DNA of 64,000 nt from Natronospira proteinivora. Its GTDB lineage: Bacteria > Pseudomonadota > Gammaproteobacteria > Natronospirales > Natronospiraceae. Location: NCBI RefSeq assembly GCF_024170465.1, contig NZ_JALJYF010000002.1, forward strand, positions 434,001-498,000, in the 5' to 3' direction. Position numbers and translations under genes: made by a program. Positions 7,332-48,504 of this stretch are shown here, piece by piece (position 1 is the first letter of the stretch; each line of letters begins with the position of its first letter). The notes beneath the pieces are model-generated. The model saw only the letters and a list, made by a program, of their open reading frames with translations, had not been told where the DNA came from and did not search any database.

Positions 7332-7385
7332 AATCAATAACCTCAAATCAGCCTAGCCAGATTCTACCAGCCCCACCACCACCCC

Positions 7386-7453: not shown

Positions 7454-7467
7454 ATGGCGCCATCTCC

Positions 7468-8802: not shown

Positions 8803-8810
8803 GACAAATG

Positions 8811-8883
8811 ATCAATTTTGGGGGAATTGATAGTTATAATAGCCAAACTATCAAATATTATCAATTTCCAGAAAATTGATAAT
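8811..8883 (-). promoter_or_regulatory. fic promoter with three overlapping inverted repeats
   Basis: On the minus strand a -35 TTGATA (8864-8859) and -10 TATTAT (8841-8836) are 17 bases apart. The same DNA holds three dyads sharing the core TATCAA/TTGATA: ATCAATT/AATTGAT (8811-8831), TTGATAGTT/AACTATCAA (8827-8854) and ATTATCAATTT/AAATTGATAAT (8857-8883, 11-base arms, 5-base spacer). The -35 is inside the third dyad and the -10 inside the second, as expected for an autorepressed promoter. The binding protein is inferred to be the Fic protein's own winged helix. Confidence 0.7.
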
Positions 8884-8899
8884 TCAAACACCCCTCCCC

Positions 8900-8966
8900 G
8901 TGGAAGCGGCATCCGCCGCGATCAATAGCAGGCCACCTGGAAATCGCGGCGGACGCCGCTCCCACA
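8900..8966. repeat. REP pair, GCGGCG variant, right of fic
   Basis: Near copy of 7386-7453 in the same overall orientation, with a GGCATCC change in the first stem loop. It also keeps the CCACCTGGAA spacer. Confidence 0.85.
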
Positions 8967-8985
8967 AGGCTGCAGCACCCACCTC

Positions 8986-9053
8986 AATCGCGAATGAATT
9001 CGCTCCTACGGCGGGGAGGCAATAGCCCGTAGGAGCGGATTCATCCGCGATCA
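8986..9053. repeat. Two REP elements, GCGAAT and GCGGAT variants
   Basis: 8986-9010 has the stem GCGAAT/ATTCGC and 9028-9053 the stem GCGGAT/ATCCGC in opposite orientation. The second contains the stop codon and last codons of the glycosyltransferase at 9041. It is the last REP before the polysaccharide interior; I see no further REP until 57681. Confidence 0.85.
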
Positions 9054-15163: not shown

Positions 15164-15172
15164 GGTCTGCCA

Positions 15173-17203: not shown

Positions 17204-18640
17204 CTACCAACCCACCCGCCGTTCAAATTCTTCCAACGGATAGAGGTCTTCCATGGCAATGGCAATCAAGGTGCCCATCTCGGGCTGCTTGTCGCGCTCA
17301 TCCTCGATACGGTCCTGCATCCGAACAATTTCACCGGAACCCAGGCAGGTTCGATCCAGATTCTCGAACACCCACTCAGGAATCACCTGACTGGCATTGG
17401 AGTAGGCAGGGTCCGGATACTTCCAGCCAGGGCCGTAATAAGCCTTGAGGAAGGACTTGGTCTTTTTGGGGATATAGGCCTGCACGTGACGGAAATCCAC
17501 GGTCTTTACTTTCTTGAAACCCTGAAAATCCAGCTCAAGGGCCGCCTGGCGTTGCGCCCAGACCTTGCCGTCCTGATACCAGACCGGGCGGGCATCCAGG
17601 TGGATATCCTCGCCCACCTCCGGATGCATGATGCGGAATGGCTTGCCACGACGATTCAGGCTGATCACGAAACCGGCACGCACCAGTTTCATCATGATTG
17701 CCTTGGTCTCTTCCCGCACCGAATCCGGATTCTGCTTGTCGGATACAAAGCCCACATCGAAATCATCATCGCCGGGAATGAAATCACCGTCCCGGTAGCG
17801 CCCCAGCAGGGTGCCGTACAACAGGAACAGCGGGCGGCCCACTTCCTCATCGAAAGCATCCCGGGCCCGGGCATACAAATCCAGATAGGCATCCTGGCGA
17901 GCACTAACGGTTCCCGGGTCCGCTGGCAGATAGCCTTTCTTGTCCAGCATTTTCCCGTCCGACAGCAACTCACTCAGACCACCCCGGGCATGGGGAATCT
18001 GGACACGCGCAACCCTTGCCTGCCCCCTGAACAGCAGTGGCATACCGTTATCGCTTTCCACCGCAATATCCGCATGGGGCGGAAACATTTCCAGCGCAGG
18101 GCGCTTGATGGTCAGGGAGAAACGCGCCTTGTTCTCTTGATAGTCCAGCTTGATGGTACGAATCAGTTGTCCGTCCAGCAGAATACGGACTTGCTCAGGT
18201 CGATCCGCCTCCCCCAGATCAACCGGCATCTTTACCTGGCCACTGACCTTGAGCCCGAGAAAGACAAAGCTGACCTTGAATTGCCCGGCCACTTCAAGCG
18301 GTCCTTCCAGCACGGAACAATGAAAGAGTGGGTCATAGACGCTTTCACCACTCTCCTGGAACAGGGCGCGCTCGAAATTGAACTGACTGGGTTGCCTCCG
18401 GCGGGAGATGGCCGTCTGACCCTTACGGTCAGCGGCATCGAAGGTCATCGCATGGGCCGCTCGGGCCCCATCAAAATCACCGGCCCGAAGACAATAGGCG
18501 GCAAGCCGTTCAGCCCAGGCCGCATTCCCCGTCAAACGGAACATGGCAGCCAGTGTCTGTTGCTTGATACGGCCTGACAGTCGGGCCTTGAGGGAAGCCG
18601 GGACCAGCCGCCGATACATTCCATACAACAACTGGCTCAT
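17204..18640 (-). CDS. LicD-family phosphotransferase with N-terminal accessory domain
   Basis: 478 residues. The LicD core is at about residues 270-400: LFLLYGTLLGRYRDGDFIPGDDDFDVGF contains the G-T-L-L-G and D-D-D-x-D metal motif of the family, followed by GEDIHLDARPVW and a late YYGPGWKYPDP. LicD proteins transfer a phospho-alcohol such as phosphocholine or phosphoglycerol from a CDP-linked donor to a sugar. The neighbouring CTP:glycerol-3-phosphate cytidylyltransferase suggests CDP-glycerol as donor. Residues 1-240 are a separate region with beta-strand character (LDGQLIRTIKLDYQENKARFSL). The stop overlaps nothing; the start overlaps the HIT gene by 4 bases. Confidence 0.85.
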   Translation of the reverse strand: MSQLLYGMYRRLVPASLKARLSGRIKQQTLAAMFRLTGNAAWAERLAAYCLRAGDFDGARAAHAMTFDAADRKGQTAISRRRQPSQFNFERALFQESGESVYDPLFHCSVLEGPLEVAGQFKVSFVFLGLKVSGQVKMPVDLGEADRPEQVRILLDGQLIRTIKLDYQENKARFSLTIKRPALEMFPPHADIAVESDNGMPLLFRGQARVARVQIPHARGGLSELLSDGKMLDKKGYLPADPGTVSARQDAYLDLYARARDAFDEEVGRPLFLLYGTLLGRYRDGDFIPGDDDFDVGFVSDKQNPDSVREETKAIMMKLVRAGFVISLNRRGKPFRIMHPEVGEDIHLDARPVWYQDGKVWAQRQAALELDFQGFKKVKTVDFRHVQAYIPKKTKSFLKAYYGPGWKYPDPAYSNASQVIPEWVFENLDRTCLGSGEIVRMQDRIEDERDKQPEMGTLIAIAMEDLYPLEEFERRVGW

Positions 18641-32688: not shown

Positions 32689-32823
32689 TCGTGGCAGGCC
32701 TGCTGAGCGAGGCCCAGAACTGAAACCAGAGCTTCGCCTACGACCCGCGCAGAATGAATACGGCGAAACCCCCAGCCTTTCCCGGATCACCAAGATCATG
32801 GGCAGACGCATCATTTTCATTAA
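32685..32823 (+). pseudogene. Possible hipA remnant
   Basis: An ATG overlapping the hipB-like stop begins a frame that closes after 12 codons (MIVAGLLSEAQN). Read through the TGA it continues NQSFAYDPRRMN, which recalls the F-x-YD segment near the N-terminus of HipA. The rest is not recognisable. Too short to be sure: it may simply be non-coding. Confidence 0.3.
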
Positions 32824-33662
32824 ATCTCCGCCCTGACTAGCCCCTCCCACAGGGCCGCGAGGACAGTGGGTATCCGCTGTATTGGCGAGCGCATGTATCG
32901 ATGGACATCAGCAACGAGTCTTGAGTCCCCATCTTGATCTATTTCATGCCCCAGAAAATCCAGCAAGAAAGTCCGATCATCGCTCGCCAGAATCTCACCG
33001 GCTTGCCATCCAAGAACCGATATAGCTGCAAGGTGAAGATCATAGTCATGAAAAGCAGCGAGATCCGGATACCGGTCGTATATCTCATCCACATTGGCGA
33101 TTCTTTCCGCATGCTCAATGAGATACGCAATATCCTCGGCATCCCGCCCCGGTTGCTGGTGGCCCCGCTCTTCCCATGCGAACAGCTTCAATGCCAACAG
33201 CCCGGCCGGGCTCGCAACGGGCACTTCCAGTTCATCATTCACCGTAACCCGGTAGGCTGCCTTGGCCGCACCGCGAAAACCTCGAACGGTCATCACCGAG
33301 TCACCATGAGGTGGCCACAGCACCTGGTTCCCCGGCCCTTCAACCCCGCCATAGGGAAGCAGATCGAAATACCGGCCATTGACCGCACGAAATCGTTTAG
33401 GCGGTCTTGCCAGTGCCTCAAAATGACGGGTGTCGGCACATGCCTGGCACAGCCTGTCGAAATGAGCCCAGTCCTCGACCCAGACTGCAAAATCGGTATC
33501 CTCCGTAGCCCGTCCTTTCGGCCATTGATAGACGCTTTCGAGCAAAAGACATCGGGCGGTGGCCCCCACAATAAGCCAGGGCACGGTTGCCAATTCTGCT
33601 GCCCTTGAGAACTGTCGCAGCGATTCCAGAAGTTCCTCATCGACAGTCGTATGCAAGCTCAC
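32820..33662 (-). CDS. AbiEii-type nucleotidyltransferase toxin
   Basis: 280 residues from a GTG at 33662 that overlaps the antitoxin stop (GTGA) with GGGAG 8 bases upstream. The nucleotidyltransferase fold is indicated by PWLIVGATARCLLLES and KGRATEDTDFAVWV (G-[S/A]-x and D-x-D metal site), a later strand with DLLPYGGVE, and SPAGLLALKLFAWEERGHQQPGRDAEDIAYLI, typical of the AbiEii/DUF1814 group. These toxins nucleotidylate cellular targets (tRNA in the best studied relatives) and cause abortive infection or growth arrest. Paired with the AbiEi-like gene directly upstream. Confidence 0.85.
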   Translation of the reverse strand: MSLHTTVDEELLESLRQFSRAAELATVPWLIVGATARCLLLESVYQWPKGRATEDTDFAVWVEDWAHFDRLCQACADTRHFEALARPPKRFRAVNGRYFDLLPYGGVEGPGNQVLWPPHGDSVMTVRGFRGAAKAAYRVTVNDELEVPVASPAGLLALKLFAWEERGHQQPGRDAEDIAYLIEHAERIANVDEIYDRYPDLAAFHDYDLHLAAISVLGWQAGEILASDDRTFLLDFLGHEIDQDGDSRLVADVHRYMRSPIQRIPTVLAALWEGLVRAEI

Positions 33663-34726
33663 AGGAACTGCTCCCGAATCAAACCGGCTGCATCCAGGCA
33701 CCGCGCGTCGCCGGTACCGACCAGATCCGCGTAAACAAGAAGAGGCGGAACCAAGCGCTTGCCACCGTATTCTTTTACAGCATCGGCTTTATCGAAATCC
33801 CAGAACGGTTGCAACAACTCAAGCTCACCTTCGTCATCGCGGCTCAATCTCAGACGCCGGGCCAGCTCATTCAGCTTCGGTCGACCGTAAACCGTAACGC
33901 GCCCGGGACGAAGATACTGGGTGAGCACAGAAGCGGCCGGTTCGCCTCCCAACCAGAGATCATGGGCCCTGAAATCAGCCAGCTCAAAACTGCGCCACCA
34001 GTCCGGGTCGTGAGCGCGGAATCGCTGCCCACCCAGTCTCGGCCGCAACTTCTGGAGATACCCCTCGACCCAACGATCAAGCAGCTCATCTTCTCTGTCG
34101 GGGTCAAAAATCCGGCCCCCCTTTCGGGACCGACAGTACCCCAGTCGCTCGAGATCCTCGATGGTGCCGGCAACGGTACCCAGTGCAACCCCGGAGTAAC
34201 GGGCCAGGGTCCGATAGCTGCTATTTCGCTGGGAATACAGACTCAACAGCGTGAAGATCACTTTCAGGCCAGCGGGCTGAAAGGCCCGGACGACCTTCGC
34301 TGGCCGAGACTTGGCAACATGCTTGCCCGAAAGGCGGATATGAACATAGGGCTCGGTTGAACGCAGATAGACATTGCCAATGCCGTCCACATACTGAATA
34401 CCGAGCGTTTTCAGGCTGGCGAGGGCCTCAGCATCGATCCGTTCGGCCACCAGAAGGTAGGGGCCCGGTACAGGTAGCCGCTGGGCAACCGCTGCGACAT
34501 TCCGGGCCACCGCCGCAGTCACCTGACGGCGGACCAGCACCGCATACTGGATGTCGGGCCCTTTCTCCGGGAAACGCAGATCGAGAAAGGCCTCAATACC
34601 GTCTCTCGGGCGAGTAATGCCGTTGAAACGACGATCTGTTTTAGGCTCATCTGTTCGGACGCCGGCCTGCTGCGCCAACACCTGCCGGGCCGTCTCAATG
34701 AGCGAAAATTTTGTCGGCTGGTCCAT
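33659..34726 (-). CDS. AbiEi-family antitoxin / autorepressor
   Basis: 355 residues. A central winged-helix region (KVIFTLLSLYSQRNSSYRTLARYSGVALGTVAGTIEDLERLGYC) and a C-terminal domain (FRAHDLWLGGEPAASVLTQYLRPGRVTVYG) match type IV antitoxins of the AbiEi group, here the longer version with an extra N-terminal nuclease-like domain (residues 45-150). It neutralises the toxin and represses the operon. The promoter has a perfectly symmetric set of four half sites (34730-34782). The pair sits between polysaccharide genes and is unrelated to them in function. Confidence 0.85.
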   Translation of the reverse strand: MDQPTKFSLIETARQVLAQQAGVRTDEPKTDRRFNGITRPRDGIEAFLDLRFPEKGPDIQYAVLVRRQVTAAVARNVAAVAQRLPVPGPYLLVAERIDAEALASLKTLGIQYVDGIGNVYLRSTEPYVHIRLSGKHVAKSRPAKVVRAFQPAGLKVIFTLLSLYSQRNSSYRTLARYSGVALGTVAGTIEDLERLGYCRSRKGGRIFDPDREDELLDRWVEGYLQKLRPRLGGQRFRAHDPDWWRSFELADFRAHDLWLGGEPAASVLTQYLRPGRVTVYGRPKLNELARRLRLSRDDEGELELLQPFWDFDKADAVKEYGGKRLVPPLLVYADLVGTGDARCLDAAGLIREQFL

Positions 34727-34847: not shown

Positions 34848-36095
34848 TCACCCAAAGAGATTCACGAAATCCAGGACCTTGCCGAATTCGATCTGGCGGC
34901 CTTCCAGGCCTTCGTAGAGGGCATCGTGGCGGACCAGGACGGCGGTGAGGTCGGCCTGGGCCAGGGCAGTATCCAGGTTCACCAGGGCCACCTGGGGGTA
35001 ATCACTGAGGGAGGGTGGCAGGGCATCCGCATGGGGCTCCACCACCAGAATCCGGGCATTTGACGACTGCGCCAGGCGCTCCACCACCCGCACGGCGGGG
35101 CTTTCCCGGAAATCATCCACATTGGGCTTGAAGGACAAGCCCAGGCAGGCCACCACCGGCTGCTCGAGCCCCTCGAGCTTCTGGCGAATCCGCTCCACAC
35201 ACCAGTCGGGTTTCATTTCATTGACTTCCCGGGCGGTGCGGATCAGGCGGGCGGTTTTGGGATCCTGGGAGACGATGAACCAGGGGTCCACCGCAATACA
35301 GTGCCCACCCACCCCGGTACCCGGCTGCAGGATATTGACCCGGGGATGGCGGTTCGCCAGAGCGATCAGCTCCCAGACATCAATGTCATGATGGTCACAG
35401 ATCAGCGAGAGCTCATTGGCGAAGGCAATATTCACATCCCGGAAACTGTTCTCCACCAGCTTGCACATCTCCGCCGTGCGGGCATTGGTGCGCACCAGCT
35501 CGCCCTTGACGAAATGCTTGTAAACCCGGGCCGCGGCCTGGGAGCAGGCATAGGTCATGCCGCCGATCACCCGGTCATTGTCCACCAGCTCCCGCAGTAC
35601 CTGGCCGGGCAGCACCCGCTCGGGGCAATGGGCGATGCGGATATCCGAGAACTCGCCTTTCTGGTGGGGGAAGGTCAGATCCGGGCGGGCCTCGGCCAGC
35701 CACTGGCTGAGTTTTTCCGTGGTGCCCACCGGTGAGGTGGATTCCAGAATCACCACATCCCCGGCCTTGAGCACGCCCGCCACATTTCGGGCGGCAGACT
35801 GGATGAAGGAAAGATCCGGCTGGTGGGCACCATCAAAGGGCGTGGGCACGGCAATCAGAAAGGCATCCGCCGGCTGGGGGGCCGTATGGGCGCGCAGCTT
35901 GCCGCCCGACACCGCGCTACGCACAGCCATGTCCAGATCCGGCTCCACGATATGAATGCCGCCGGCATTGATGGTCTCCACCACCGAGGGCAAAACATCC
36001 ACGCCCACCACCTCGATGCCGCGCGAGGCGATAACGGCCGCTGTCGGCAGGCCAATATAGCCCAGGCCGACAACCGCAATCCGCTCAATAGCCAT
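34848..36095 (-). CDS. wecC: UDP-N-acetyl-D-mannosamine dehydrogenase
   Basis: 415 residues from ATG 36095. Oxidises UDP-ManNAc at C6 with two NAD+ to UDP-ManNAcA. N-terminal Rossmann motif [19 protein letters not shown], central region with [18 protein letters not shown] and [13 protein letters not shown] (catalytic Cys in GGHCIAVDP), and the C-terminal [13 protein letters not shown] with NAD/UDP binding. The open frame runs 56 codons further upstream, but that is overlap with wecB; the family starts at [10 protein letters not shown]. It overlaps wecB by 11 bases. The product is a uronic acid donor for the repeat unit. Confidence 0.94.
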
Positions 36096-37221
36096 GTCTG
36101 GCAAGTACTCCCTGAATAATTCTCGGGCAGGCGGCACCATCGCCATAAGGGTTGTGCGCCCGACGCATTCGATTATAGGCATCCGGGTCGTCAAGGAGTG
36201 TCGCGGCCGCATCCACGATCCGCTGGCGGCTGGTCCCCACCAGCTGCACGGTGCCGGCCTCAAGGGCCTCCGGCCGCTCGGTCTGCTCCCGCATCACCAG
36301 CACCGGCCGGCCCAGCGAGGGCGCCTCTTCCTGGACACCACCAGAATCGGTAATTATGAGGGATGCCCGGGTCATGAGAAAGACAAAGGGCAGATAATCC
36401 TGGGGCTCAATGAGATGCACATTCTCCCGGCCACTCAGGGTCTCGCGCACCGGCTTCTGCACCCGGGGGTTGAGATGCACAGGATACACAATTTGCACAT
36501 CCGGCCGCTCGGAAAGCTCGGCCAGGGCCTCGCATATCCGATCAAAACCGGCCCCGAAGCTCTCCCGCCGATGCCCCGTCACCAATATCAGCCGACGCGA
36601 GGGGTCCAGAAAGGGAAAACGCGCCGCCAGCGACTCGGCCAGATCCGGCTCCTGCTCAATCCGGGCCGCCATCCGCAGCAAGGCATCGATGACGGTATTG
36701 CCCGTCACCTGAACGGCATTACTGGGCACCCCTTCCCGCAGCAAGGACTCCCGGGCCCGCTCAGTGGGGGCAAAATGCAGATCCGCAATCCCACCCGTCA
36801 ACTTGCGATTGATCTCCTCCGGCCAGGGCGAATAGATATCCCCCGTCCGCAGCCCGGCCTCCACATGCCCCACGGGCACCTGGGCGTAATAAGACGCCAG
36901 ACTGGCCGCCAGGGTGGTGGTGGTGTCCCCATGGACCAGTACCCGATCCGGCCGCCACTCCGCCAGCACATCACGAAGCCCGGTCAGCACCCCGGCGGTA
37001 ATATCCGTCAGATCCTGCCCACCCTGCATGATCCCCAGATCAAAATCCGGCTCAATCCCGAACAGGGCCAGCACCTGATCCAGCATTTCCCGGTGCTGCC
37101 CGGTCACACACACCCGCGCTTCAATCTCCGGCGCATCAGCCAGCGCCTTGACCAGCGGCGCCATTTTGATGGCCTCCGGGCGAGTACCAAACACAGTGAG
37201 AATCTTAAGGGGCGCTTCCAT
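36085..37221 (-). CDS. wecB: UDP-N-acetylglucosamine 2-epimerase (non-hydrolysing)
   Basis: 378 residues from ATG 37221. Interconverts UDP-GlcNAc and UDP-ManNAc. Conserved blocks are [16 protein letters not shown] at the N-terminus, [51 protein letters not shown], and [31 protein letters not shown]. Directly upstream of wecC, forming the usual UDP-ManNAcA pair. The 105-base gap to the sulfotransferase-like gene upstream contains only an extension of the open frame without family similarity. Confidence 0.95.
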
Positions 37222-37326
37222 GTGGCTCCTTCCTGAGAGGGTCTGAGTCATCCGGCGCAGTCCAAAAGCATGACAAAGCAGTCGATTATACCGATTCAGG
37301 CCCCACGATTGGCCGAACCGGGCCAA

Positions 37327-38808
37327 TCAGATAGCAGGACCCTCCAAAAAAGGGCTAAGCTGCCCTTCGATAAAGCGACGCTCATCTTCATTTAAAATCT
37401 GGCGATACACACCGATATTTTCAGAGGACTCCTCCGGCTTGAATTGACTGCCTTCCATCCGAATACCTCCGGACAAACCAAGCTTTTCTGCCAAGCGCTG
37501 GCGCAGGCCCTCATTCAAGACAAAGGCCTCGAAGCCCACCACCGTTATTCGCTCGTTACCCGGTACCTGGGCGCCGATTGCCTTATCCAGCATTCGCCGC
37601 TGACTCGCATAGCGGCTGGCAAACCGCTCCACAGGCGGCGCGGAGGCGTTCATTTTCAGGGTGGCATACACATCACGGGGGTCGCGGACAACGCAGACCA
37701 TATCGAAGCCTTCCATGTACCCCAACCCCTCAAAACCTTGACTGCCGAATTTGAGCAGCTGATCAAACAGGTACAACTGGCCTTCGCCGTAGGACTGGGC
37801 ATAGAAATCAAGCGCGCCGCCAAAGGTATTTCTCAAGCCGATCTCATCAACGCCTTGGCCCTCGCGGTACGCTTCTGCAATCAATCTCTCGAACTGCCGA
37901 CATGAGTACAGAAAAGCTTCCCAAAGTTTCTCGCCGGACTCTTCCCTCAGGAACTGCTCATACATCCGGTGCATCGGCGCATTGTCGGCAGGCCAAACCC
38001 CGAAGTATTTCTGCAGCAGAAACAGAATCAAGGCGCGGGCACATTCGTCGGCTTGTGAACAATGCTCGAATATAGGCGCGATGCTCCAGTTGCCGGTAAA
38101 CGGCCTGAAGCCACCTCCCACGGGAATCACATCATCCTGATCACAGAAAAAATCATAGACTGCGCTCGCCCCGGACCATCCCATCCCGGACACCGTCACC
38201 TTGTTGCGTCGTGGAGCAGCATCCAGGCCAACAGAACCCCGAGCCCCCTCTCCCTCCCGAACAGAACCAGTGGAGATGCTCACCAGCCGCTCGAAGGCTT
38301 CAAGCATCAGTGCAGCAACATTCGGATCCACGGCCCGAACGCGCAAAGCCTTTGCAGCAAGATCAAGGGCGGCCTCACGGAACCTGGAATCCAGGGGAAA
38401 GGCAGCCAACGAGTCACCCACCTCCGTAGTAACAGTCACACGCGCCATGGCGTGCTGAATAGAACGGCTTAGAACTTCAGGGGAAGGGCCTTCATCATCA
38501 CCTCCCCAGCTCAGGCCGTCTTTCCGTGCCGATAAACTGGATTTGAGCTTCACCAGCCGCCGCACAGCCCGAAAAATCCGGTCTCTCTCAGTATCGGGAT
38601 CGCCGAGCTCAATCAACTCAAGCAGACCGCGAACCTCCCCGGCATCCAGCACCATGCCGGCTTTCATACGGAGATCAAGCAACTGGGATTTGACTTCCAA
38701 GGCCCGGGGATAGGCCGCCTCAGCATCCTTCAAGACCTGCAGTGCCTCACCATAGGCTCGACTGCGCTTGAGTCGGGAGACCTTTGCCAGCATCCTCTCT
38801 ATCTTCAT
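37327..38808 (-). CDS. Sulfotransferase-like P-loop protein (B)
   Basis: 493 residues. A phosphate-binding loop SGMGWSGASAVYDF at about 210, VCVVRDPRDVYATLK at about 380 (3'-phosphate site), and a C-terminal KPEESSENIGVYR motif that is shared with the proteins at 13337 (SQQNIGIH) and 45280 (SMKNVGLY). The N-terminal 190 residues are helical. The family transfers sulfuryl from PAPS. Here it is 104 bases downstream of the phosphoramidate cytidylyltransferase gene, so it is the best candidate for transferring the phosphoramidate or a sulfate. No PAPS-synthesis gene is in the window. Confidence 0.72.
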   Translation of the reverse strand: MKIERMLAKVSRLKRSRAYGEALQVLKDAEAAYPRALEVKSQLLDLRMKAGMVLDAGEVRGLLELIELGDPDTERDRIFRAVRRLVKLKSSLSARKDGLSWGGDDEGPSPEVLSRSIQHAMARVTVTTEVGDSLAAFPLDSRFREAALDLAAKALRVRAVDPNVAALMLEAFERLVSISTGSVREGEGARGSVGLDAAPRRNKVTVSGMGWSGASAVYDFFCDQDDVIPVGGGFRPFTGNWSIAPIFEHCSQADECARALILFLLQKYFGVWPADNAPMHRMYEQFLREESGEKLWEAFLYSCRQFERLIAEAYREGQGVDEIGLRNTFGGALDFYAQSYGEGQLYLFDQLLKFGSQGFEGLGYMEGFDMVCVVRDPRDVYATLKMNASAPPVERFASRYASQRRMLDKAIGAQVPGNERITVVGFEAFVLNEGLRQRLAEKLGLSGGIRMEGSQFKPEESSENIGVYRQILNEDERRFIEGQLSPFLEGPAI

Positions 38809-38911: not shown

Positions 38912-39688
38912 CTAATCCAGACGGCAAAATGCCTCCAATTTGCCGTCAGCCTGCATTTCCTCATAAACCTCAAGCTCGGAGGCAGTATCCACCTCCAGCC
39001 AGCCATTTTCGACCAGAGCCGCACGCGTGTCCCATCCGGCATCGATCAGATGCTGGATAAAACTGGTCATATACATGTTGTCGAAGTCCTTGCCGTCATA
39101 CTCGGCATTCCGATCCATGCCCTGATACGCCGTGACAAAATCCTTCACCCGGTCGCCGCGAATCTTGATCAAACCCATGTACTGGGCCTGGGCATCGTCA
39201 TAGGAGGTCGGCTCCTTGCCGAGCTCGGTGACGCGATTACCATCTCTCATCTTAAAGGTTTCGGCATCGGAGAGCGGATCATCCATCCGGGTTTCCCAAA
39301 GCCGGCGCCACTCGCGATCGGCGCCCAGAACGATCTCCCCTTCACCTTCCAACACGGCCTGTAGGACGCGATCCTCGAAGACGATATCCCCATAGCTGAT
39401 GAGCAAACCATTCCCAGGCGTCATCTGATCGGCGGCACAGAACAGGGTCGCAACCATATTGGTTTGATCAAAGCGTGGGTTGGTGATCACCGCCACATCC
39501 GGGGCTTCCAGGCACTCTGCGCGATACCCGCCAACCAGCGAAATATCTTCCACCCCGTTGCGGCGCAGCACATCAATCTGCCGATGCAGCATTGGCCGGC
39601 CAGCGAGCAGGACCATGCACTTGGGCTTATCTTCCGTGTAGGGACGAAGGCGGGTGCCCTGCCCCGCGGCAAGAATAATGGCTTTCAT
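38912..39688 (-). CDS. CTP:phosphoglutamine cytidylyltransferase-like (LicC-type nucleotidyltransferase)
   Basis: 258 residues. The nucleotidyltransferase signature LAAGQGTRLRPYTEDKPK spans residues 6-23 with the catalytic Arg13 and Lys23. LLISYGDIVFED carries the metal-binding Asp. LEVDTASELEVYEEM at the end is typical of this group. By itself it could be phosphocholine cytidylyltransferase. Its neighbours (GATase-like hydrolase 2 bases upstream, glutamine-kinase-like gene at 41030) match Cj1416-Cj1417-Cj1418 of Campylobacter jejuni, where this enzyme makes CDP-L-glutamine from CTP and N-phospho-L-glutamine. Specificity is inferred from context. Confidence 0.8.
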   Translation of the reverse strand: MKAIILAAGQGTRLRPYTEDKPKCMVLLAGRPMLHRQIDVLRRNGVEDISLVGGYRAECLEAPDVAVITNPRFDQTNMVATLFCAADQMTPGNGLLISYGDIVFEDRVLQAVLEGEGEIVLGADREWRRLWETRMDDPLSDAETFKMRDGNRVTELGKEPTSYDDAQAQYMGLIKIRGDRVKDFVTAYQGMDRNAEYDGKDFDNMYMTSFIQHLIDAGWDTRAALVENGWLEVDTASELEVYEEMQADGKLEAFCRLD

Positions 39689-39690
39689 AA

Positions 39691-40320
39691 TCAGTTCCAG
39701 AATAGTTGCGAGATAAGTTGCGTGTCGGCATCAAGGAAAGGCGTCTCCCGCTCAGGGTGCCACATGATGGCAAGCCAGGGGAGTGAGGTATGAACGGCGG
39801 CCTCGACGGTACCATCATCGGCACGGGCTCGGGCCTTCAGCTCCTGGCCAAGCCCATCTGAGGGAACCGCCCAATCGTGAAAACTGTTCACTTCACGGTA
39901 GGCCTCAAAAAGGGGGTCACCCCCTTCGGGCACCACCACGTGCCGGGTGGCCACATGGCCTTGTACAGGCTGGAGACGGCCACCCAGGAAATGATTCATC
40001 ATCTGCATGCCACGGCAGACCCCGAGCACGGGCAGGTTTTGTGCCCGGGAGAACTCCAGAACGGCTGCCTCGGTGCGATCCCGCTCCGGCGCCGACCGAC
40101 TGACGTTAGGCAAATGTGCCAGATCATTGCCACCGCTCAAGATAAACCCATCCAGACCCAGATCCGCCAGATAAGCGCTCGGGTGCTCAAGGCTATTGGG
40201 CAGCGGGACAGGCACGAGACCCAGGGATTCCAGCAGGCGAAACCAGGCCTGATCGAGGCAGTCACGGCGTTCGCCGTATCTATCGATTACTTCAACTCGT
40301 TGGGAGACACCAATTCTCAC
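39691..40320 (-). CDS. Gamma-glutamyl-CDP-amidate hydrolase-like class I amidotransferase
   Basis: 209 residues, peptidase C26 / class I glutamine-amidotransferase fold. The catalytic triad is visible: Cys102 in LGVCRGMQMM, His188 and Glu190 in WHPERE. The N-terminus IGVSQRVEVIDRYGERRDCLD matches the Cj1417 type more than PuuD. In the MeOPN pathway it releases L-glutamate from CDP-L-glutamine to leave cytidine diphosphoramidate. No synthase partner of a normal amidotransferase is present. Start ATG 40320; the cytidylyltransferase gene begins 2 bases after its stop. Confidence 0.82.
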   Translation of the reverse strand: MRIGVSQRVEVIDRYGERRDCLDQAWFRLLESLGLVPVPLPNSLEHPSAYLADLGLDGFILSGGNDLAHLPNVSRSAPERDRTEAAVLEFSRAQNLPVLGVCRGMQMMNHFLGGRLQPVQGHVATRHVVVPEGGDPLFEAYREVNSFHDWAVPSDGLGQELKARARADDGTVEAAVHTSLPWLAIMWHPERETPFLDADTQLISQLFWN

Positions 40321-40350
40321 GTGTTACCGCCATAAATCGGAGAAGACACC

Positions 40351-40995
40351 TTAGGCCTCCTTTCGAAAAATTTTATTCTTGACGAGTTCGGTATATCGTC
40401 CAGAGCGTCGAACCAGACGCTCTACGATCATCTCTACCTGTCGCGCTTCAATTTGCTCGTCAGTATACATATCGGCCGTGGCGGATATCTTTTCCGGATC
40501 AAGGCTGGAACCACGAAGCCGCCAGCCATAATCATCAAAATCAAAATAACCGCCAGGTTTCAGTAGTCGATCCGCAAGGAAAAAGGTCAAAGCATCAACC
40601 GCCCAGGTGTGAGCCCCATCCAAATAGACATAGTCAAATATGGGATAGGAAAATTGATCCATAAGCTTACCGAGAGGCCAGTTATAGGAATCAAGGAATC
40701 GCTGAGTGGAACCAAACCGTCGGACTTTCTTATAGCCCTCTTTCTTCAGGTTCTCCGCGACATAGTCAACGTTATCCTCATAATCAAAAAGGAACAACTC
40801 GCCCTTCTTGCCTAGAAGGCGGGCCAACTGGAATGAAGTACCACCCTTCCATATACCAATTTCGGCAAAGCGAAGAACCCCCTTATCCGGAACATTCATC
40901 AAGCCACTGTGCTTCTCAATGAAGTCAATCGTAGTCTTGTTGTACTTCTCGGCAAACTCGCCGGCGAGGATTTTTTTGGGGTACCACTTTTCCAT
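40351..40995 (-). CDS. Class I SAM-dependent methyltransferase
   Basis: 214 residues from ATG 40995, which has AGAGGG 6 bases upstream. An ATG at 41064 (237 residues, overlapping the next gene by 35 bases) is the alternative. Motif I is LRFAEIGIWKGGTSFQLA, motif II ELFLFDYEDN, and the post-motif YVYLDGAHTWAVDALTFFLADRLLKPGGYFDFDD. The fold is that of small-molecule or sugar O-methyltransferases (Methyltransf_24-like). Its place inside the phosphoramidate genes suggests it makes the O-methyl phosphoramidate ester, as Cj1419/Cj1420 do in Campylobacter; sugar O-methylation is the alternative. Confidence 0.8.
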   Translation of the reverse strand: MEKWYPKKILAGEFAEKYNKTTIDFIEKHSGLMNVPDKGVLRFAEIGIWKGGTSFQLARLLGKKGELFLFDYEDNVDYVAENLKKEGYKKVRRFGSTQRFLDSYNWPLGKLMDQFSYPIFDYVYLDGAHTWAVDALTFFLADRLLKPGGYFDFDDYGWRLRGSSLDPEKISATADMYTDEQIEARQVEMIVERLVRRSGRYTELVKNKIFRKEA

Positions 40996-41029
40996 TCGAG
41001 GCCCTCTGGTCGTCAAATAGGTTCGCCAG

Positions 41030-44000
41030 CTATCGGAGAACCTGTATTTTTCTATTACCCGCATCCAGCTCCAATACCTGCGCGCCGGAAAGCTGGGCGT
41101 ATTTCGTCTCACCCACGCCAATAGCCGCTGGCAGACCAAACTCGGCCGCCCGAATGGCCATGTGGGAGTTAGCACCCCCATACATGGTTATCAGCCCAGC
41201 GATACCCTGACCGAAGAGCCAATCATAACCTGGGTCCGCCTGGGGGATCATGGCAATCTTGCCTGACAGCTTGGGTGCTTCCCGGCTCCCCGTCTCGGCG
41301 AGATCGACACAATCAGCCGTGATTCGGCCACCACCGATGAAGTTGGGCTGGTTTCCCGGATACATGAATACGTCAAAGTCGCCCGCATCAAGCAGCAGAG
41401 GTGGGAGCTCAATCACGCTTGCCATGTGTCTCAGGCGATGGCCAGCATAGGCACGATCCTTCAACCACTGGGCAATATCCGAGGTCACCACGCTGCCGGT
41501 GCGTAGGCCGAAAAAGGCATCCAGCGGCACATTGGAGATTTCTTCACGATCGAGGCCGTGGCTTTCACCAAATTCCGCCAGGCAATCGAGTGCAGCGGAC
41601 AGGTTGCGAGTAAACACAAACTTCGCATACTCCCGCCCTTCAATCGCCTCCCGCATGAACCGTTCCACCGCATCAATGTCATCGGAAAGGCCTACCTCAG
41701 AGACAGCTTTGCCGAATGCGCTCCGGGCCGCATCCCAGGCACTGGTATCGGCCTGTTCCGGCATCTGGCCTTTGGCACGCTCCACGATCGGGCGCAGGTA
41801 ATGCTCTGGGTCTTCAAGATAACTGGGGGAGGTAATGTCGTAGGTGCCGGGGCGCAGATGGCCATAACGGGCGACGAAGGCCTCCCAGCTCATCTCACCT
41901 TCGGCGGTCGCGGCGGCATCATGGGTAAATCGATGCGTGACCGTACGGATGGAATTGAGGAAGGCATCCATCGCCGCCTTGTCCATCACTTCGGTTTCAA
42001 CCGCTGTTTTCAATAATGTCACAGCGACGAAGGCACTGCGGGCAAGGTGCGAAAAGGCCAGTGTTCCATAACGCTGGCAGTCCTCCAAGAGTACGACAAC
42101 CCGTTCCAGCGCCGGGATGTCAGCCGCCATGATCCGGTCGAAACGAGACTCCAACGTATCCACAGACGCCAGATCATGGGCATTACGTCCAAGCGCGTCG
42201 CGCGTAATACCTTTGAGGGCATCGCGGAGCTGGGCAACCTCCTCAGAGCTGAACCCACCCTCATCGACCAGCCGACGTTCCCAGCGCTCAAAATTCAGCC
42301 CATAACAGGTGGGTACTACATCAAATTCGACCTTGTCATGGAGATGCGGATTCGCTTCCAGCCATTCCAGGTAGAAATCTACCAGTCGGCCAGCTAGCTC
42401 ATCATCCAGTTTAGCCGGAACAAAGGAATTGAAACTCGCACGGATATCCACATAAGGGTGACCTGCAAAAGCAACCAGTAGAGGGTGTGGCCGAACATCA
42501 CGATATCCGTACTCAGCCCGCTGCGTGGCCCAGACCTCATCCATAATCAAATATCGGTATAGGCCCATAGCCAAGCGGCCCGGCTTAGTACCAATAATCT
42601 CAGCAGGATTCCAATCGGGCATGACACCAAAGAACGCGCGACGACCAACAGTGAATGGCGAAGGTGTCTGTAGCGCCTGAAAACGATTCCTACCGGTCTC
42701 AATCAATGCAGCTACATCGCCATCCGACACTTCCCACTGCTCATGATCCACGGCAATGGGGCGCACTTGGAGGATATGCACTTCACCTGCCGAACTGATG
42801 GCGAATTCGATATCAAGCGAATCGTATTCCAGCAGACGCTCGATCTCGCGCAGGGCGGCCGGCAAGCCACGCACCGATTCCGGAATACGTTCCGGATCCA
42901 GCTCCGCCCCCCGGTAGATCACCAGGGTCTTGTGTTCCTTGCTGGCCCCACTGGTGATGGACTCGGTACTCCGAGTCACATCATCGTAGTTGATCACATA
43001 ATAGGGGGCGCCATAGGCAAGCGTCCGGGTGAAGGCCACCCCACTCGCCCGCACATCGGCCACCATGGGCTGGACCAGCACCTGGTTGGCCGGGTTGCCG
43101 TCCGGATAGGAAGCCACGACTTCTTCAATCGCCTGGCGTAGGGCGACTGCATCACTGCTATCCACATGCAGCACACTGGTATAGGCACCGGCATTGGCAG
43201 AAGAAAAACCATCTTCAGAGAGTGCACTACTTCGAACCACCAGCGGCTTTCCATCAAAAGCCGCGGCCACGCGGCGAATCACCTCGGTCGTATCGGCCTG
43301 CCACTGGGCGACCGTGAAGGTGACCTGATCCTCAATGCGGCTCTTCTTGACAAGGCCCTGGAGGCGGTAAAGTGTCTGGGCCTTGGTGCCGAGCACGAAG
43401 TGGGCAAGGTCCCGACTCTCATTGAGCTCTGCCCAATCGCCGGCCACATCCACAGCGCGCACACTAAAGCCCCGGGTCCGGAGAAACTCCACGAGCTGCG
43501 AGAGCTTGGCACGCCGCATGCGGCCAGCCAGAGTTCTTGCCTGATCTTTCAGGAAGGCAACCACGCGCGGCGAGAAACGCACCAGGCCGATGAACTCGGC
43601 ATCGGCAAATTCCGGGTCAATATCGGCACCCAGGCGGGTAACCGTCCCCTCATGCAGGTTCAACTTCTCGCAGCGAGCAATATCTTCTTCAGTCCGACCT
43701 TCGAAACGCTTGCGCCAATGCGTATCCGCGCCAACAACTATATCGGCGTCAACTTGCCGCATTTCCCGCACGACAGAGTCATGAAATAGAATATCGGCAT
43801 AGGACACGTAATGATCGACCACGCCTGATAATGCCGCTTCCAACAAAGAGGCGGCCGCCCCCGTTTCCTCCCACTCTGGATTCACCACGTAGTGGAAGTC
43901 CGGATATCGGCGGGCCACTTCCTCAACCTGATAACCACCAACAAAGTGGATCTCGGGTTTTAGGTCGCTGACCGCCTGAAGGAGCCAATCAAGAACACGG

Positions 44001-44122
44001 CCCTCGCCGGTTGTTCCGCGCAGCGCCGTATGCTGCTGTCCACGGAATGGGCGGCCCGCGCCGAGGACGACCAGCTTCGGGGAGTCATTGTGCTCCGACG
44101 GGACGCGCTTAACACCTGCCAT
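41030..44122 (-). CDS. L-glutamine kinase-like PEP-synthase relative fused to a degenerate nucleotidyltransferase
   Basis: 1030 residues in three parts. Residues 15-250 resemble the cytidylyltransferase at 38912 (VGGYQVEE, SYADILFHD, VGADTHWRKRFEGR, AEFIGLVRF) but lack the G-x-G-T-R-L and K-P-K catalytic signature. Residues 260-470 are the ATP-binding domain of PEP synthase/PPDK (LVVRSSALSEDGFSSANAG and EFAISSAGEVHILQVRPI). The C-terminus is the swivelling phosphohistidine domain, with His987 in GGANSHMAIRAAEFG. The long middle is helical and replaces the PEP barrel. This is the layout of Cj1418, which phosphorylates the amide of L-glutamine with ATP; the N-terminal fusion is extra. Phosphorylated substrate inferred from neighbours. 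Confidence 0.82.
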   Translation of the reverse strand: MAGVKRVPSEHNDSPKLVVLGAGRPFRGQQHTALRGTTGEGRVLDWLLQAVSDLKPEIHFVGGYQVEEVARRYPDFHYVVNPEWEETGAAASLLEAALSGVVDHYVSYADILFHDSVVREMRQVDADIVVGADTHWRKRFEGRTEEDIARCEKLNLHEGTVTRLGADIDPEFADAEFIGLVRFSPRVVAFLKDQARTLAGRMRRAKLSQLVEFLRTRGFSVRAVDVAGDWAELNESRDLAHFVLGTKAQTLYRLQGLVKKSRIEDQVTFTVAQWQADTTEVIRRVAAAFDGKPLVVRSSALSEDGFSSANAGAYTSVLHVDSSDAVALRQAIEEVVASYPDGNPANQVLVQPMVADVRASGVAFTRTLAYGAPYYVINYDDVTRSTESITSGASKEHKTLVIYRGAELDPERIPESVRGLPAALREIERLLEYDSLDIEFAISSAGEVHILQVRPIAVDHEQWEVSDGDVAALIETGRNRFQALQTPSPFTVGRRAFFGVMPDWNPAEIIGTKPGRLAMGLYRYLIMDEVWATQRAEYGYRDVRPHPLLVAFAGHPYVDIRASFNSFVPAKLDDELAGRLVDFYLEWLEANPHLHDKVEFDVVPTCYGLNFERWERRLVDEGGFSSEEVAQLRDALKGITRDALGRNAHDLASVDTLESRFDRIMAADIPALERVVVLLEDCQRYGTLAFSHLARSAFVAVTLLKTAVETEVMDKAAMDAFLNSIRTVTHRFTHDAAATAEGEMSWEAFVARYGHLRPGTYDITSPSYLEDPEHYLRPIVERAKGQMPEQADTSAWDAARSAFGKAVSEVGLSDDIDAVERFMREAIEGREYAKFVFTRNLSAALDCLAEFGESHGLDREEISNVPLDAFFGLRTGSVVTSDIAQWLKDRAYAGHRLRHMASVIELPPLLLDAGDFDVFMYPGNQPNFIGGGRITADCVDLAETGSREAPKLSGKIAMIPQADPGYDWLFGQGIAGLITMYGGANSHMAIRAAEFGLPAAIGVGETKYAQLSGAQVLELDAGNRKIQVLR

Positions 44123-44399: not shown

Positions 44400-45287
44400 T
44401 TATTTAATACGCCTTGAATCACCTAGCATAAACTCAAACTCCACAGGATAGTGATAGGAAGGAAACGCAGATCCAACACGAAATCCAAGCTCACAAACCT
44501 GATTTATTTCTCCGCGACCGACGAGAACCGCCCTCGTATTTGCGCCAATGCCTCTACCGTATCCATCATGGAAGAAATTGTGCTGCGTCAACCAGCGACC
44601 CTTCCTGTTATTCGCAATCCATTCATCACTACTATCGATTCCGCGTGTTGACATCTTTTCTGACGCTAGGTCTAGCACTGCACTCCACTCCGGATCACTA
44701 AACGGCTTACAATTCGTATCACCCCCCATAATTACCACCTCTGAGCCTTCAACCTTGTCACACACATAATCAATCATTTCGATGCCGGTAAGCTCTCGAT
44801 ATCGCCTAGCGCTGGCTGCATTTGAATTTCTCAACCGGAAATTCAAAACGTTTACATGCATACTTTCACTTGCGTCCGAAAATCGACCATGGACGAACAG
44901 AGTACCGCCCGAACCCGACACTCCAGTAGAGTCCGTCTTGAAATTAACCACCGGGTCTCGATCAAGCTCCGGGTGCCATTTTTCTGGGTTGTACATTATT
45001 GGCACCCCATCTCCGCGCTCGTTCGCGCAAAGTGCTGCTGAATTTGGCCAGAGCTCAAGGCCTGTCGCACGCGCAAGGTTTTCCAACGCGGCTGCTTCTG
45101 CGCACCCGAAGTGCTGCAAATTCACAAAATCATAATTACCAGCCAGTATAATCGCGCTGATCAATTCGATCCTCACTTGCCAACCAACATCTTGCGGCAA
45201 CCCGCTCAGATAGCCCTTATCCAGCATATGCGAGGGAGCAGACATTGCACTAAAGCTAAGCACCCGAACCGTAGTAGATTCAGCCAT
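44400..45287 (-). CDS. Endonuclease/exonuclease/phosphatase-fold protein with altered active site
   Basis: 295 residues from ATG 45287, with GGAGGG 8 bases upstream; it overlaps the sulfotransferase-like gene by 8 bases. The fold is recognisable from VVIMGGDTNCKPF (the GDxN strand) and the terminal Ser-Tyr-His-Tyr-Pro in SAFPSYHYPVEFEFML. However, the usual Q-E metal ligand is replaced by Gln-His (FVNLQHFG) and the usual Ser-Asp-His is Ser-Tyr-His, so normal Mg-phosphodiesterase chemistry may be lost. It could act on a nucleotide intermediate or a sugar phosphate, or be a catalytically dead binding protein. Low GC relative to neighbours. Confidence 0.65.
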   Translation of the reverse strand: MAESTTVRVLSFSAMSAPSHMLDKGYLSGLPQDVGWQVRIELISAIILAGNYDFVNLQHFGCAEAAALENLARATGLELWPNSAALCANERGDGVPIMYNPEKWHPELDRDPVVNFKTDSTGVSGSGGTLFVHGRFSDASESMHVNVLNFRLRNSNAASARRYRELTGIEMIDYVCDKVEGSEVVIMGGDTNCKPFSDPEWSAVLDLASEKMSTRGIDSSDEWIANNRKGRWLTQHNFFHDGYGRGIGANTRAVLVGRGEINQVCELGFRVGSAFPSYHYPVEFEFMLGDSRRIK

Positions 45288-47295
45288 GAGTAGAACCCTC
45301 CTCACTCACAGACTGCCCCTGCAGATAGCTTGACAATCTTCCATCACCTTCTATAGCCACCACGATGTCATCCCTCAGGTCGCTTTGTTTATACAACCCA
45401 ACATTCTTCATTGAATCTCTCGGGTTAAACTTGGGGCCCGCCTGCGAGAGAGGCTCCTGACCACCAGTAACCCAAAGAAGCAAACGCCTCCGCTCTTTGC
45501 TGTCCTGCACAAACTGTTCAAACTGAACAGTTTGTACTGCTTTTGTTAATTCACAATCAACGACGGATCGCTCAAATTTTTCAGTTTTCTCCAAATAATC
45601 ACTAATAAACTCTCCAGCCTCAACCTTTCCTTTGCCTTCATCACGCCTAGTAATGTACACATCTCTGGGGTCTCTAAAGGACACGCACATCTTCGATCCA
45701 GAAAAATTACGAATAAGGCAGGCATCCCAAGCTCGGATTACGCTATCGAGAAGTATAGGGACGCTTGGTTTTCGACCAAGCGAGTCGGCCATTGCAGCGA
45801 TTACTGGACCTAGTTGAATAGGAGCCTGGCGCACCCCTTGATCCCTTCCTTTCGCCAACCCCAAGAACAACGCTTTCAATTCATTCAAAATCCGACATCG
45901 AGCGCGGACATCCGACACTTCATCCACTACCCCACTAACCGCATCAGGCCGCTTAGTTCCAAATGGAATCCCGAGATAATTGGACGAAATAAACCGAGCC
46001 AGAGTTTCGATCCATTCTCTCTCGCTGCTTTTACTAGCATTAATTACGCCAATAAGATCCGTTCGCGCCCCACTGATCCATAGACAGTCTTTCGGAAACC
46101 GGAATGCGTTCGTATGAGCCTCTAAGTAATCTGCTATTGCCCCAGCTCCCGAATAATGAAATCCTGAAGTAAGCCAAATACGAGGATAGGTTGCCGAAAG
46201 ACTAGAGCACCGTCCCACACAGTCCGCCGGGTCTCTTATCTTGCAGAATATTTCGAAGATAATTTCTTTTTCATCAGACGACAAAGATGAATTATCACAA
46301 ATAATCTCTGCTAATTTAGGTAGATTGCTACTCGTTATAGATTTGCACTCAAAAAGAATCCTCTCACCTTGAGAAATTCTTTTTAGCATGTTAAATGCTT
46401 TTTTTTCATACCGTAAAATCTCTGCATCTTTCGAAATAGACGAATAATATTCGTTTACAACCCCACCCACCTCGTCATATCGCTTTGCTTTATAGGAGAT
46501 TTTCACATACTCACGCAAAACTGACGGCGATACTGCCGAACCCGCACTATTAATATATGTCTTTAATGCACTCAAATACCGTCCACGACCAGAGAATGAA
46601 TCCAATTTGAGCAAAATAAGAGGATCTTTCGGGCATTTTGAATAAAGCTCTATGCTAGACCATTCTTTGATAAGCAGATTCGCGCAATACCGCGCCTCGG
46701 CTCGAGTCGACTCTCGACGCATATATCTATCCTTGGTAAATGCTGCCGTTAACTCTTCTAGAACAAATGCGCGCGTCGGAACATCACTGGAAACGGCTAT
46801 CTTCAAGATCGCTTCGATTGCGCGTGACCAGCCATATATCGTCGAAAATGGAACCAATAACCCGGAGGCGTGCTTGGATTGACCAGGCATCAGAACTGCA
46901 CGTAACAACTCACTTGCGACTTGATCAACACTTTCAACGCTATTTACGTGACCACCGACATGCGTTAGCATGAACTTTCTTTTCATTCGTTCATAACAAT
47001 CATCACAATCCTCAAGTCGATAAAATAACATTTCACTCCATCTCATCGACTCAAACGCGGGACCAAGGTCACCAATAAATCGCCACGCCTTTGGGCTGAC
47101 AAAGTACTCGGAAAGATACTCATAAGCATAAAGCGTTGACAGCGCTTTCCTATTATTCTTAAAGCTCGCCAAAATAAGCGCGCGATACACGCGCTCGCTT
47201 ACTGCAGGTCTCTCAAGAGCAGCGATTCGCTCAATTATATCTAAAGCTTTAATCCAATCGCCGCTATCTGCAGCATGCCGGTAGTTCTTCCACAT
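45280..47295 (-). CDS. Sulfotransferase-like P-loop protein (C), AT-rich
   Basis: 671 residues. Helical N-terminal half (residues 1-340, TPR-like ALDIIERIAALERPAVSERVYRALIL). The phosphate loop is SGFHYSGAGAIADYLEA at about 378, the 3'-phosphate site VSFRDPRDVYITRRDEG at about 545, and the C-terminal motif FNPRDSMKNVGLY. Related in layout to proteins A and B but very divergent, and encoded by visibly AT-rich DNA. A genuine PAPS sulfotransferase, or a transferase for 3'-phospho-CDP-phosphoramidate; no experimental or sequence evidence in the window decides. Start ATG 47295; its ribosome site is weak. Confidence 0.68.
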   Translation of the reverse strand: MWKNYRHAADSGDWIKALDIIERIAALERPAVSERVYRALILASFKNNRKALSTLYAYEYLSEYFVSPKAWRFIGDLGPAFESMRWSEMLFYRLEDCDDCYERMKRKFMLTHVGGHVNSVESVDQVASELLRAVLMPGQSKHASGLLVPFSTIYGWSRAIEAILKIAVSSDVPTRAFVLEELTAAFTKDRYMRRESTRAEARYCANLLIKEWSSIELYSKCPKDPLILLKLDSFSGRGRYLSALKTYINSAGSAVSPSVLREYVKISYKAKRYDEVGGVVNEYYSSISKDAEILRYEKKAFNMLKRISQGERILFECKSITSSNLPKLAEIICDNSSLSSDEKEIIFEIFCKIRDPADCVGRCSSLSATYPRIWLTSGFHYSGAGAIADYLEAHTNAFRFPKDCLWISGARTDLIGVINASKSSEREWIETLARFISSNYLGIPFGTKRPDAVSGVVDEVSDVRARCRILNELKALFLGLAKGRDQGVRQAPIQLGPVIAAMADSLGRKPSVPILLDSVIRAWDACLIRNFSGSKMCVSFRDPRDVYITRRDEGKGKVEAGEFISDYLEKTEKFERSVVDCELTKAVQTVQFEQFVQDSKERRRLLLWVTGGQEPLSQAGPKFNPRDSMKNVGLYKQSDLRDDIVVAIEGDGRLSSYLQGQSVSEEGSTHG

Positions 47296-47431
47296 ATTTC
47301 GCCGCCCATGATTACTAAATCAAAAGCCTGGAATCACAGCTTAGGCGGCCGGACTCAAGAGCATCCAGCTATAGCTAGCGCTATCATTCCAGGCACGAAA
47401 ACTAAGTCCAGGCCAACCACAGTTCCACCAA

Positions 47432-48454
47432 TCACTCACTTTCCCCTAATTGATCTGTCAGCTGCTCAGCTGCTGCGACTACATCAGTAAGCCTTTCGAG
47501 ATCATGAGTCGATTTCACATTCAGGTTAACCGGCGCCCACTTTTCAACATATGCGGCACATGTCGCTGCCTTCACATCTGAAAACGACAATGCGTCATAT
47601 TTGAGACCAGATGACCTACAAAGCTCCGACCAATATCGAGCCAAAGCAGCCTCGCCTCCACTCGACCCACGCGCAATATAGTAATAAAGCCAATACAACT
47701 CATATCCTACGGGCCCATAGAATACCCTCCCGAAGTCGCGCAAAGATACGACGTCCGAGTCAATTGAGATATTCCAATGATTGAAATCGCCATGGGTCAG
47801 GACCATTGGCAGGCTCGACAAATACTCGGAAACAACAGACCATTTCCGAGAAACAACATCCAGACGCTCCCACAAAGAACGGAGCGATGCGCGACTCGCG
47901 CCGCCGAAGACATCTACTAAGGTTGAAAGCGCCGGAACTTTTAGTCCACGCCCTTTATCGAGAACAGGCACACTGACTCGATCGTTGTCCCGATAAGGAT
48001 TGGCGCTATGAAATTCGGCCACCGCATCGATAACGAGACGCGGCACAGCCCGGCAGCTGCCACCGGGATCCACATTCAACCGATTGTCCTCCAAGCAAGG
48101 AAAAAATAGGTAAATCCTTCCTTCAAAGCAAATGACTCTCTCCGCAACAACCATGCTGTATAATTGGCCACGCGGATTAACATTACCTTTTTCAACATCT
48201 TCGAATAGCTTCGCTTCTGCCCGCTTACTGCCATCGACAACCTTCAAAAACTTGAGAGTGTCACAACCATAAACCTTGCCGGTATAAATATTCGCAGATC
48301 CCCCTGTCTTCGGCTCGATCCTCAGATTATCAAAGCACTCTCTTTCACGAGACATTCTCTCAAAGTCATCTCTTACTGCGGAGACGTACTTTTCAAACTC
48401 TGCTTTTCTGCGGGTGCGATTAGCGGAAACCCTTAAGGCTTTGACTGGATCCAT
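47432..48454 (-). CDS. APH/choline-kinase-type phosphotransferase
   Basis: 340 residues from ATG 48454 (a GTG lies directly before it). The kinase-like catalytic loop LTHGDFNHWNI (H-G-D-x-x-x-x-N) and the D-F-G-like VSLRDFGRVFYGPVGYEL are intact. N-terminal EPKTGGSANIYTGKVYG stands for the nucleotide loop. It should phosphorylate a small molecule or sugar hydroxyl with ATP. In this block it could supply a sugar phosphate, or stand in for the kinase step (Cj1415) of the phosphoramidate pathway; the second idea is speculation. AT-rich, like its neighbours. Confidence 0.78.
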   Translation of the reverse strand: MDPVKALRVSANRTRRKAEFEKYVSAVRDDFERMSRERECFDNLRIEPKTGGSANIYTGKVYGCDTLKFLKVVDGSKRAEAKLFEDVEKGNVNPRGQLYSMVVAERVICFEGRIYLFFPCLEDNRLNVDPGGSCRAVPRLVIDAVAEFHSANPYRDNDRVSVPVLDKGRGLKVPALSTLVDVFGGASRASLRSLWERLDVVSRKWSVVSEYLSSLPMVLTHGDFNHWNISIDSDVVSLRDFGRVFYGPVGYELYWLYYYIARGSSGGEAALARYWSELCRSSGLKYDALSFSDVKAATCAAYVEKWAPVNLNVKSTHDLERLTDVVAAAEQLTDQLGESE

Positions 48455-48504
48455 CACGAACTATTTCTCTTACAATTTAAATTTAGAAGGAACGGCATAC
48501 ACAA

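Follow-up and report, generated by a model that had tools for sequence, protein, structure and literature searches.

The pathway that supplies the precursor of O-methyl phosphoramidate (MeOPN) in Campylobacter jejuni, Cj1415 to Cj1418, was reportedly described by Taylor, Raushel and colleagues. Its enzymes lead to 3'-phospho-cytidine diphosphoramidate (3'-phospho-CDP-amidate), and Cj1421 and Cj1422 are needed for transfer (PMC11800397); the transfer of phosphoramidate is still described as an open step in recent work (PMC12409886). The glutamine kinase has been called specific to C. jejuni (PMC9561416), and MeOPN has been called a Campylobacter-only structure (PMC6429109). Two reports place unmethylated phosphoramidate in the lipopolysaccharide of Xanthomonas campestris and of Shewanella sp. 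MR-4 (PMC3907429, PMC3210612). Here, we analyze a 64,000-nucleotide stretch of the Natronospira proteinivora genome (contig NZ_JALJYF010000002.1, positions 434,001 to 498,000; hereafter the window), in which a run of four intact minus-strand genes (44122-38912) encodes a dikinase, a methyltransferase, a hydrolase and a cytidylyltransferase. As in the Cj1415-Cj1418 region of C. jejuni, the glutamine kinase, phosphoglutamine cytidylyltransferase and, by best match, CDP-glutamine hydrolase families, hereafter the trio, are clustered in a polysaccharide locus. We consider it quite probable that this locus makes cytidine diphosphoramidate (CDP-amidate) and puts phosphoramidate on a surface polysaccharide.

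Results

The gene at 41030-44122 (minus strand) encodes a 1030-amino acid protein, residues 236-1029 of which score 901 bits with the NCBIfam model NF004508/PRK05849 (cut-off 501). Its kinase part (residues ~243-1030) consists of an ATP-grasp domain, a middle substrate domain and a C-terminal His domain with His987, which lies within the motif GGxxSHMAIR and is invariant across 38 kinases. These results bear out an earlier note on this DNA, which had called the protein L-glutamine-kinase-like. The protein also matches the Pfam domains PPDK_N and PEP-utilizers, and the best full-length fold match of its AlphaFold2 (AF2) model, which has a mean predicted local distance difference test score (pLDDT) of 88.7, is rifampin phosphotransferase (structure search, E 1.3e-21).

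At its N terminus, this protein carries an additional nucleotidyltransferase (NTase) domain (residues 12-240; 43403-44089, minus strand). Neither the domain nor the flanking sulfotransferase-fold genes described below featured in the earlier note. The domain has a cytidylyltransferase fold in the AF2 model (residues ~12-240, Z 23) and is matched at 90 bits by a hidden Markov model (HMM) built on free NTases. The GxGxR motif is deleted in 40 of 46 fused domains. The lysine of the PK motif, invariant in 74 free enzymes, occurs in 0 of 46 fused domains among the residues listed, where the position is mostly Ser, Ala or Thr; the acidic and aromatic (D/E/W) pocket residues are retained. The fused domain may be a pseudo-enzyme that binds a substrate or a partner. 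A third kind of fusion was seen in another locus, L047, where the N-terminal extension of the kinase (6925-9726) resembles, by eye, an HxGH-type cytidylyltransferase.

The hydrolase gene (39691-40320, minus strand, GTG start) encodes a 209-amino acid protein with Pfam matches to PF07722 and PF00117 (Peptidase_C26 and others). Its best NCBIfam family is NF045546, the Cj1417-type gamma-glutamyl-CDP-amidate hydrolase (130 bits, E 9e-38), followed by a family at 47 bits. The same model is matched by 48 of 48 hydrolases tested, and the triad Cys102, His188 and Glu190, already pointed out for this class I amidotransferase-like protein, is invariant in 48 relatives. The adjacent gene (38912-39688, minus strand) encodes a 258-amino acid MobA/LicC-like NTP transferase with an intact LAAGQGTRL..DKPK signature, whose nearest solved structure is LicC (1jyk, 50 bits), in line with the LicC-type cytidylyltransferase proposed before. 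This signature and its linkage to the kinase suggest a free CTP:phosphoglutamine cytidylyltransferase of the Cj1416 type.

Judged by homology, the trio most likely makes CDP-amidate in the manner of Cj1418, Cj1416 and Cj1417. The 258-amino acid enzyme would couple L-glutamine phosphate to cytidine triphosphate (CTP) with release of pyrophosphate, and the 209-amino acid Cys/His/Glu hydrolase would then take off L-glutamate to give CDP-amidate. In a less certain step, the sulfotransferase-fold proteins STa and STb may transfer phosphoramidate to a sugar hydroxyl, either from CDP-amidate or from its 3'-phosphorylated form.

Linkage of the three genes extends far beyond this genome. Among 369 genomes of the same class, the kinase was above cut-off in nine, including that of the window. 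The trio is close together in all eight others, in the window's gene order in seven of the eight; unlike the window, locus L048 has the hydrolase gene first. When 84,980 species were scanned, each represented by a single genome, at least 550 relatives came to light, and in 84 of 88 loci with a recognizable kinase, from many phyla of bacteria and archaea, the hydrolase and cytidylyltransferase genes were both within 6 kb of the kinase, counted over all six frames. Because the genes occur together in these 84 loci, we regard the trio as a conserved unit and most likely a producer of CDP-amidate. Campylobacter was not among the best 80 matches of the genome-contig scan, and there was none among 14 plasmid tblastn matches. 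Of 96 Shewanellaceae genomes, only 4 carried the glutamine kinase. Archaeal kinases with their partners occur in Haloferax elongans (L118) and a member of the Woesearchaeota (L097), where an APS-kinase-like gene lies close by. The earlier view that the three core activities lie together in a polysaccharide locus outside Campylobacter is well supported by the assignment to families, by the catalytic residues and by this near-universal linkage.

The loci are of two types. In type A, the kinase has ~780 amino acids and is either alone or fused to a domain resembling adenosine 5'-phosphosulfate (APS) kinase; in type B, which includes the window, the pseudo-cytidylyltransferase is fused before the kinase, giving ~1000-1060 amino acids. 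Of 34 type-A loci, 30 have an APS-kinase-like gene or domain, compared with only 3 of 46 type-B loci (Fisher p 2e-14, with relatedness ignored). In type A the gene mostly lies beside the trio, and in six loci it is fused to the kinase (L042, L099, L110, L111, L113 and L128). We count this partner as support for the pathway because the fourth Campylobacter enzyme is just such a kinase (PMC11800397). In a tree of the kinases, the window belongs to a 45-row clade in which 41 rows have the fusion (SH-aLRT 99); the type-A clade, which has 32 rows, contains no fusion. A small number of fused proteins fall outside the 45-row clade, and the fusion may therefore be older than the split between the two types.

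As the earlier note had observed, the window itself holds no Cj1415-like CDP-amidate kinase or other APS-kinase homologue detectable by homology search. In the genome as a whole, the sole full APS kinase is of the CysNC type, with otherwise a partial P-loop match. When 12 genomes of type-B loci were searched with the APS-kinase family, a full-length match was absent in eight, some of which may be incomplete drafts: three are 1.3-Mb partial genomes, and the remaining five, from Legionella septentrionalis, Marinobacter daepoensis, Marinobacter M30B21, Halomonas alkalisoli and Rhodoferax TH121, have an ordinary size. A second APS-kinase search agrees for four of these five. Two other families recur in type-B loci, for example in L068 (15157-15984 and 17272-18420): c4, which is Formyl_trans_N-like, and c5, which is Glyphos_transf/TagF-like (PDB 3l7i, E 2.5e-7; PF04464 in 16 of 19 members) and is found in 19 of 47 type-B loci versus 5 of 34 type-A loci. 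The c5 proteins could use CDP-amidate directly. No homologue of either family was found in the window.

STa (37327-38808, minus strand; domain at residues ~196-470) and STb (45280-47295, minus strand; domain at residues ~369-649) belong to one family, members of which adjoin the trio in Marinobacter, Legionella and a Sulfitobacter metagenome-assembled genome. The HMM scores are 301 bits for STa, shared with the Marinobacter protein adjoining the trio, and 285 bits for STb; sulfotransferases fill the fold list of the AF2 domain model of STa (best Z 10.3, pLDDT 71). A related family, ST2, which includes large Lachnospiraceae proteins, accompanies type A. In both types, sulfotransferase-fold genes occur in linkage with the trio. 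Known sulfotransferases have a 5'-phosphosulfate loop and bind the 3'-phosphate with an Arg and a Ser. In the STa/STb family, Trp or Tyr replaces the Lys/Arg that precedes Ser-Gly in the 5'-phosphosulfate loop. The residue at +8 from the 3'-phosphate-binding Arg is Ser in those ST2 proteins whose motif can be read and in L077, Thr in L066, STa and STb (Arg541 in STb), Glu in five Marinobacter proteins, and Asp in Legionella. Glu or Asp thus occupies the position in several type-B members that have no Cj1415-like kinase nearby. This pattern, which was noticed after looking and involves few independent lineages, is consistent with a donor that is 3'-phosphorylated in type A and unphosphorylated in part of type B. 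We regard STa and STb as candidate phosphoramidate transferases.

Beside STb, the gene at 44400-45305 (minus strand) encodes a protein of the exo/endonuclease/phosphatase (EEP) fold (PF03372, at its cut-off). It matches residues 554-858 of an L066 protein (13816-16407; phmmer, E 2.6e-18) in which an ST domain is fused to an EEP domain and whose gene adjoins that of the hydrolase; the window has these two parts as neighboring genes. Adjoining genes at 13337-15163 and 15173-16543 (minus strand) encode a further sulfotransferase-like protein, the third (ST HMM, E 6.6e-20), and a "sugar-transfer associated ATP-grasp" protein (PF14397).

The remaining gene of the run (40351-40995, minus strand; 40995 is the likeliest start) encodes an accessory S-adenosylmethionine-dependent methyltransferase of 214 amino acids (PF13578). 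All four genes are thus intact and of the families named previously, as judged by Pfam, NCBIfam and structure searches. The methyltransferase differs from the trio in its G+C content (46.8% versus 57-60%), and a protein search of related loci found no homologue of it in other trio loci. In C. jejuni, knock-outs of Cj1419 and Cj1420 have capsule without apparent change, and these genes have no assigned function or established role as MeOPN methyltransferases (PMC11800397). For these three reasons, we find the MeOPN-type part of the earlier proposal unsupported, and likewise a place for the window methyltransferase in the pathway. The pathway part of that proposal, from glutamine and CTP to CDP-amidate, is well supported.

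Low G+C (45-49%) is shared by the methyltransferase and the EEP, STb and APH genes (44400-48457), so the locus looks mosaic. The trio shares its locus with genes for a UDP-sugar dehydrogenase, a phosphoglucose isomerase, glycosyltransferases and an initiating transferase, and the open reading frame at 36085-37326 presumably encodes a WecB-like epimerase of the same polysaccharide locus. An AbiEii/AbiEi type IV toxin-antitoxin-like pair lies within this locus (32820-34726, minus strand), and a HipA-like kinase gene (PF07804; 57726-58964, minus strand) is flanked by sugar genes.

Discussion

The chemistry of the kinase, NTase and hydrolase is predicted from homology, and transfer by STa or STb would give N. 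proteinivora a phosphoramidate-modified glycan, possibly a methylated one. Several points weigh against this reading. The likeness to Cj1415-Cj1418 is drawn from family models and not from C. jejuni sequences, and the 130-bit score of the hydrolase falls below the curated 250-bit equivalog cut-off of NF045546. Only part of the type-B loci has sulfotransferase-fold genes. STa and STb keep Arg...Thr at the 3'-phosphate site though no APS-kinase homologue lies near the trio, and the genome has its CysNC-type APS kinase. Finally, the window also holds a LicD-like gene (17204-18640) and an APH-like gene (47432-48457), which would allow for a different CDP-linked decoration.

One interpretation of these points is that the trio does make CDP-amidate, but that STa and STb are ordinary sulfotransferases using 3'-phosphoadenosine 5'-phosphosulfate (PAPS), and that phosphoramidate is transferred, with cytidine monophosphate as the leaving group, by the product of another gene: the LicD-like gene, or c5 in relatives. 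Because the genome holds an APS kinase of the CysNC type, STa and STb could be PAPS-dependent, and the retained Arg...Thr favors the same view. The LicD-like gene (minus strand) has a PF04991 match with the stretch GTLLGRYRDGDFIPGDDDFD (E 1.8e-10) and may encode a CDP-dependent phosphotransferase belonging to the same sugar locus, and c5 is commoner in type B than in type A. However, the LicD match spans just 27 residues and lies 20 kb from the trio, and c5 has no counterpart in the window. Moreover, ST genes immediately adjoin the trio in several genera, and the ST gene is present in Legionella septentrionalis and Marinobacter daepoensis, in whose genomes a full-length APS kinase was not found. 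We consider this alternative possible, if doubtful.

Much less probable is a phosphocholine-like decoration following the logic of LicA, LicC and LicD, in which the NTase would be a phosphocholine cytidylyltransferase, the APH-like kinase (47432) would phosphorylate choline, and the LicD-like protein would transfer the product. The nearest solved structure of the NTase is indeed LicC, and both other genes are in the window, but the LicD match is partial, the APH-like protein has no solved-structure match by sequence and no NCBIfam match, the NTase gene accompanies those of the glutamine-kinase family and the hydrolase in the 84 linked loci, and the kinase and hydrolase would be left unexplained. 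The least credible explanation, which their PPDK_N, PEP-utilizers and Peptidase_C26 domains might suggest, is that the kinase is a phosphoenolpyruvate (PEP) synthase or pyruvate dikinase and that the hydrolase is PuuD-like and acts on gamma-glutamyl compounds in unrelated metabolism. Against it, the 1030-amino acid protein has no Pfam match to the PEP-binding C-terminal barrel of PEP synthase and is closest in fold to rifampin phosphotransferase, a separate PEPS/PPDK-like protein is encoded elsewhere in the genome (792-amino acid frame at C1:501192), and the PuuD model gives the hydrolase only 34 bits versus 130.

Beyond the proposal that the locus makes CDP-amidate and decorates a surface polysaccharide, we tentatively suggest, at somewhat less than even likelihood, that type B is a second branch across bacteria and archaea without a CDP-amidate kinase. 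In this branch, sulfotransferase-fold or TagF-like transferases would use CDP-amidate directly to make unmethylated glycans, while type A would use 3'-phospho-CDP-amidate as an analogue of PAPS with sulfotransferase-fold transferases. The interest of the locus lies in this kinase-free type B and in the spread of the trio; the core of the earlier note was right and its methyl part is unsupported. If our reading is true, surface glycans with P-N bonds are widespread but have been overlooked, because screens based on methyl signals in nuclear magnetic resonance are blind to unmethylated phosphoramidate (PMC3907429). It would also supply transferase candidates and a testable rule, namely the residue at +8 of the 3'-phosphate loop. 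In the open-access literature that we searched, a glutamine kinase outside Campylobacter was not described, though its wider spread may already be on record.

Like X. campestris and Shewanella sp. MR-4, N. proteinivora would be a bacterium other than Campylobacter that carries phosphoramidate on its surface glycan; the passages that describe it in those two assign it to no genes (PMC3907429, PMC3210612). The window kinase shares with rifampin phosphotransferase the order of ATP-grasp, substrate and C-terminal His domains; the two differ in expected substrate, are 14-16% identical, and only the window protein adds an N-terminal NTase domain. Similarly, STa and STb share the fold of PAPS sulfotransferases (PF13469), whereas their family has Trp/Tyr in place of the 5'-loop Lys/Arg and, in place of the 3' Ser, Thr in the window and Glu or Asp in Marinobacter and Legionella. 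Unlike the C. jejuni system, the window has an N-terminal pseudo-cytidylyltransferase on its kinase and no Cj1415-like CDP-amidate kinase near its trio.

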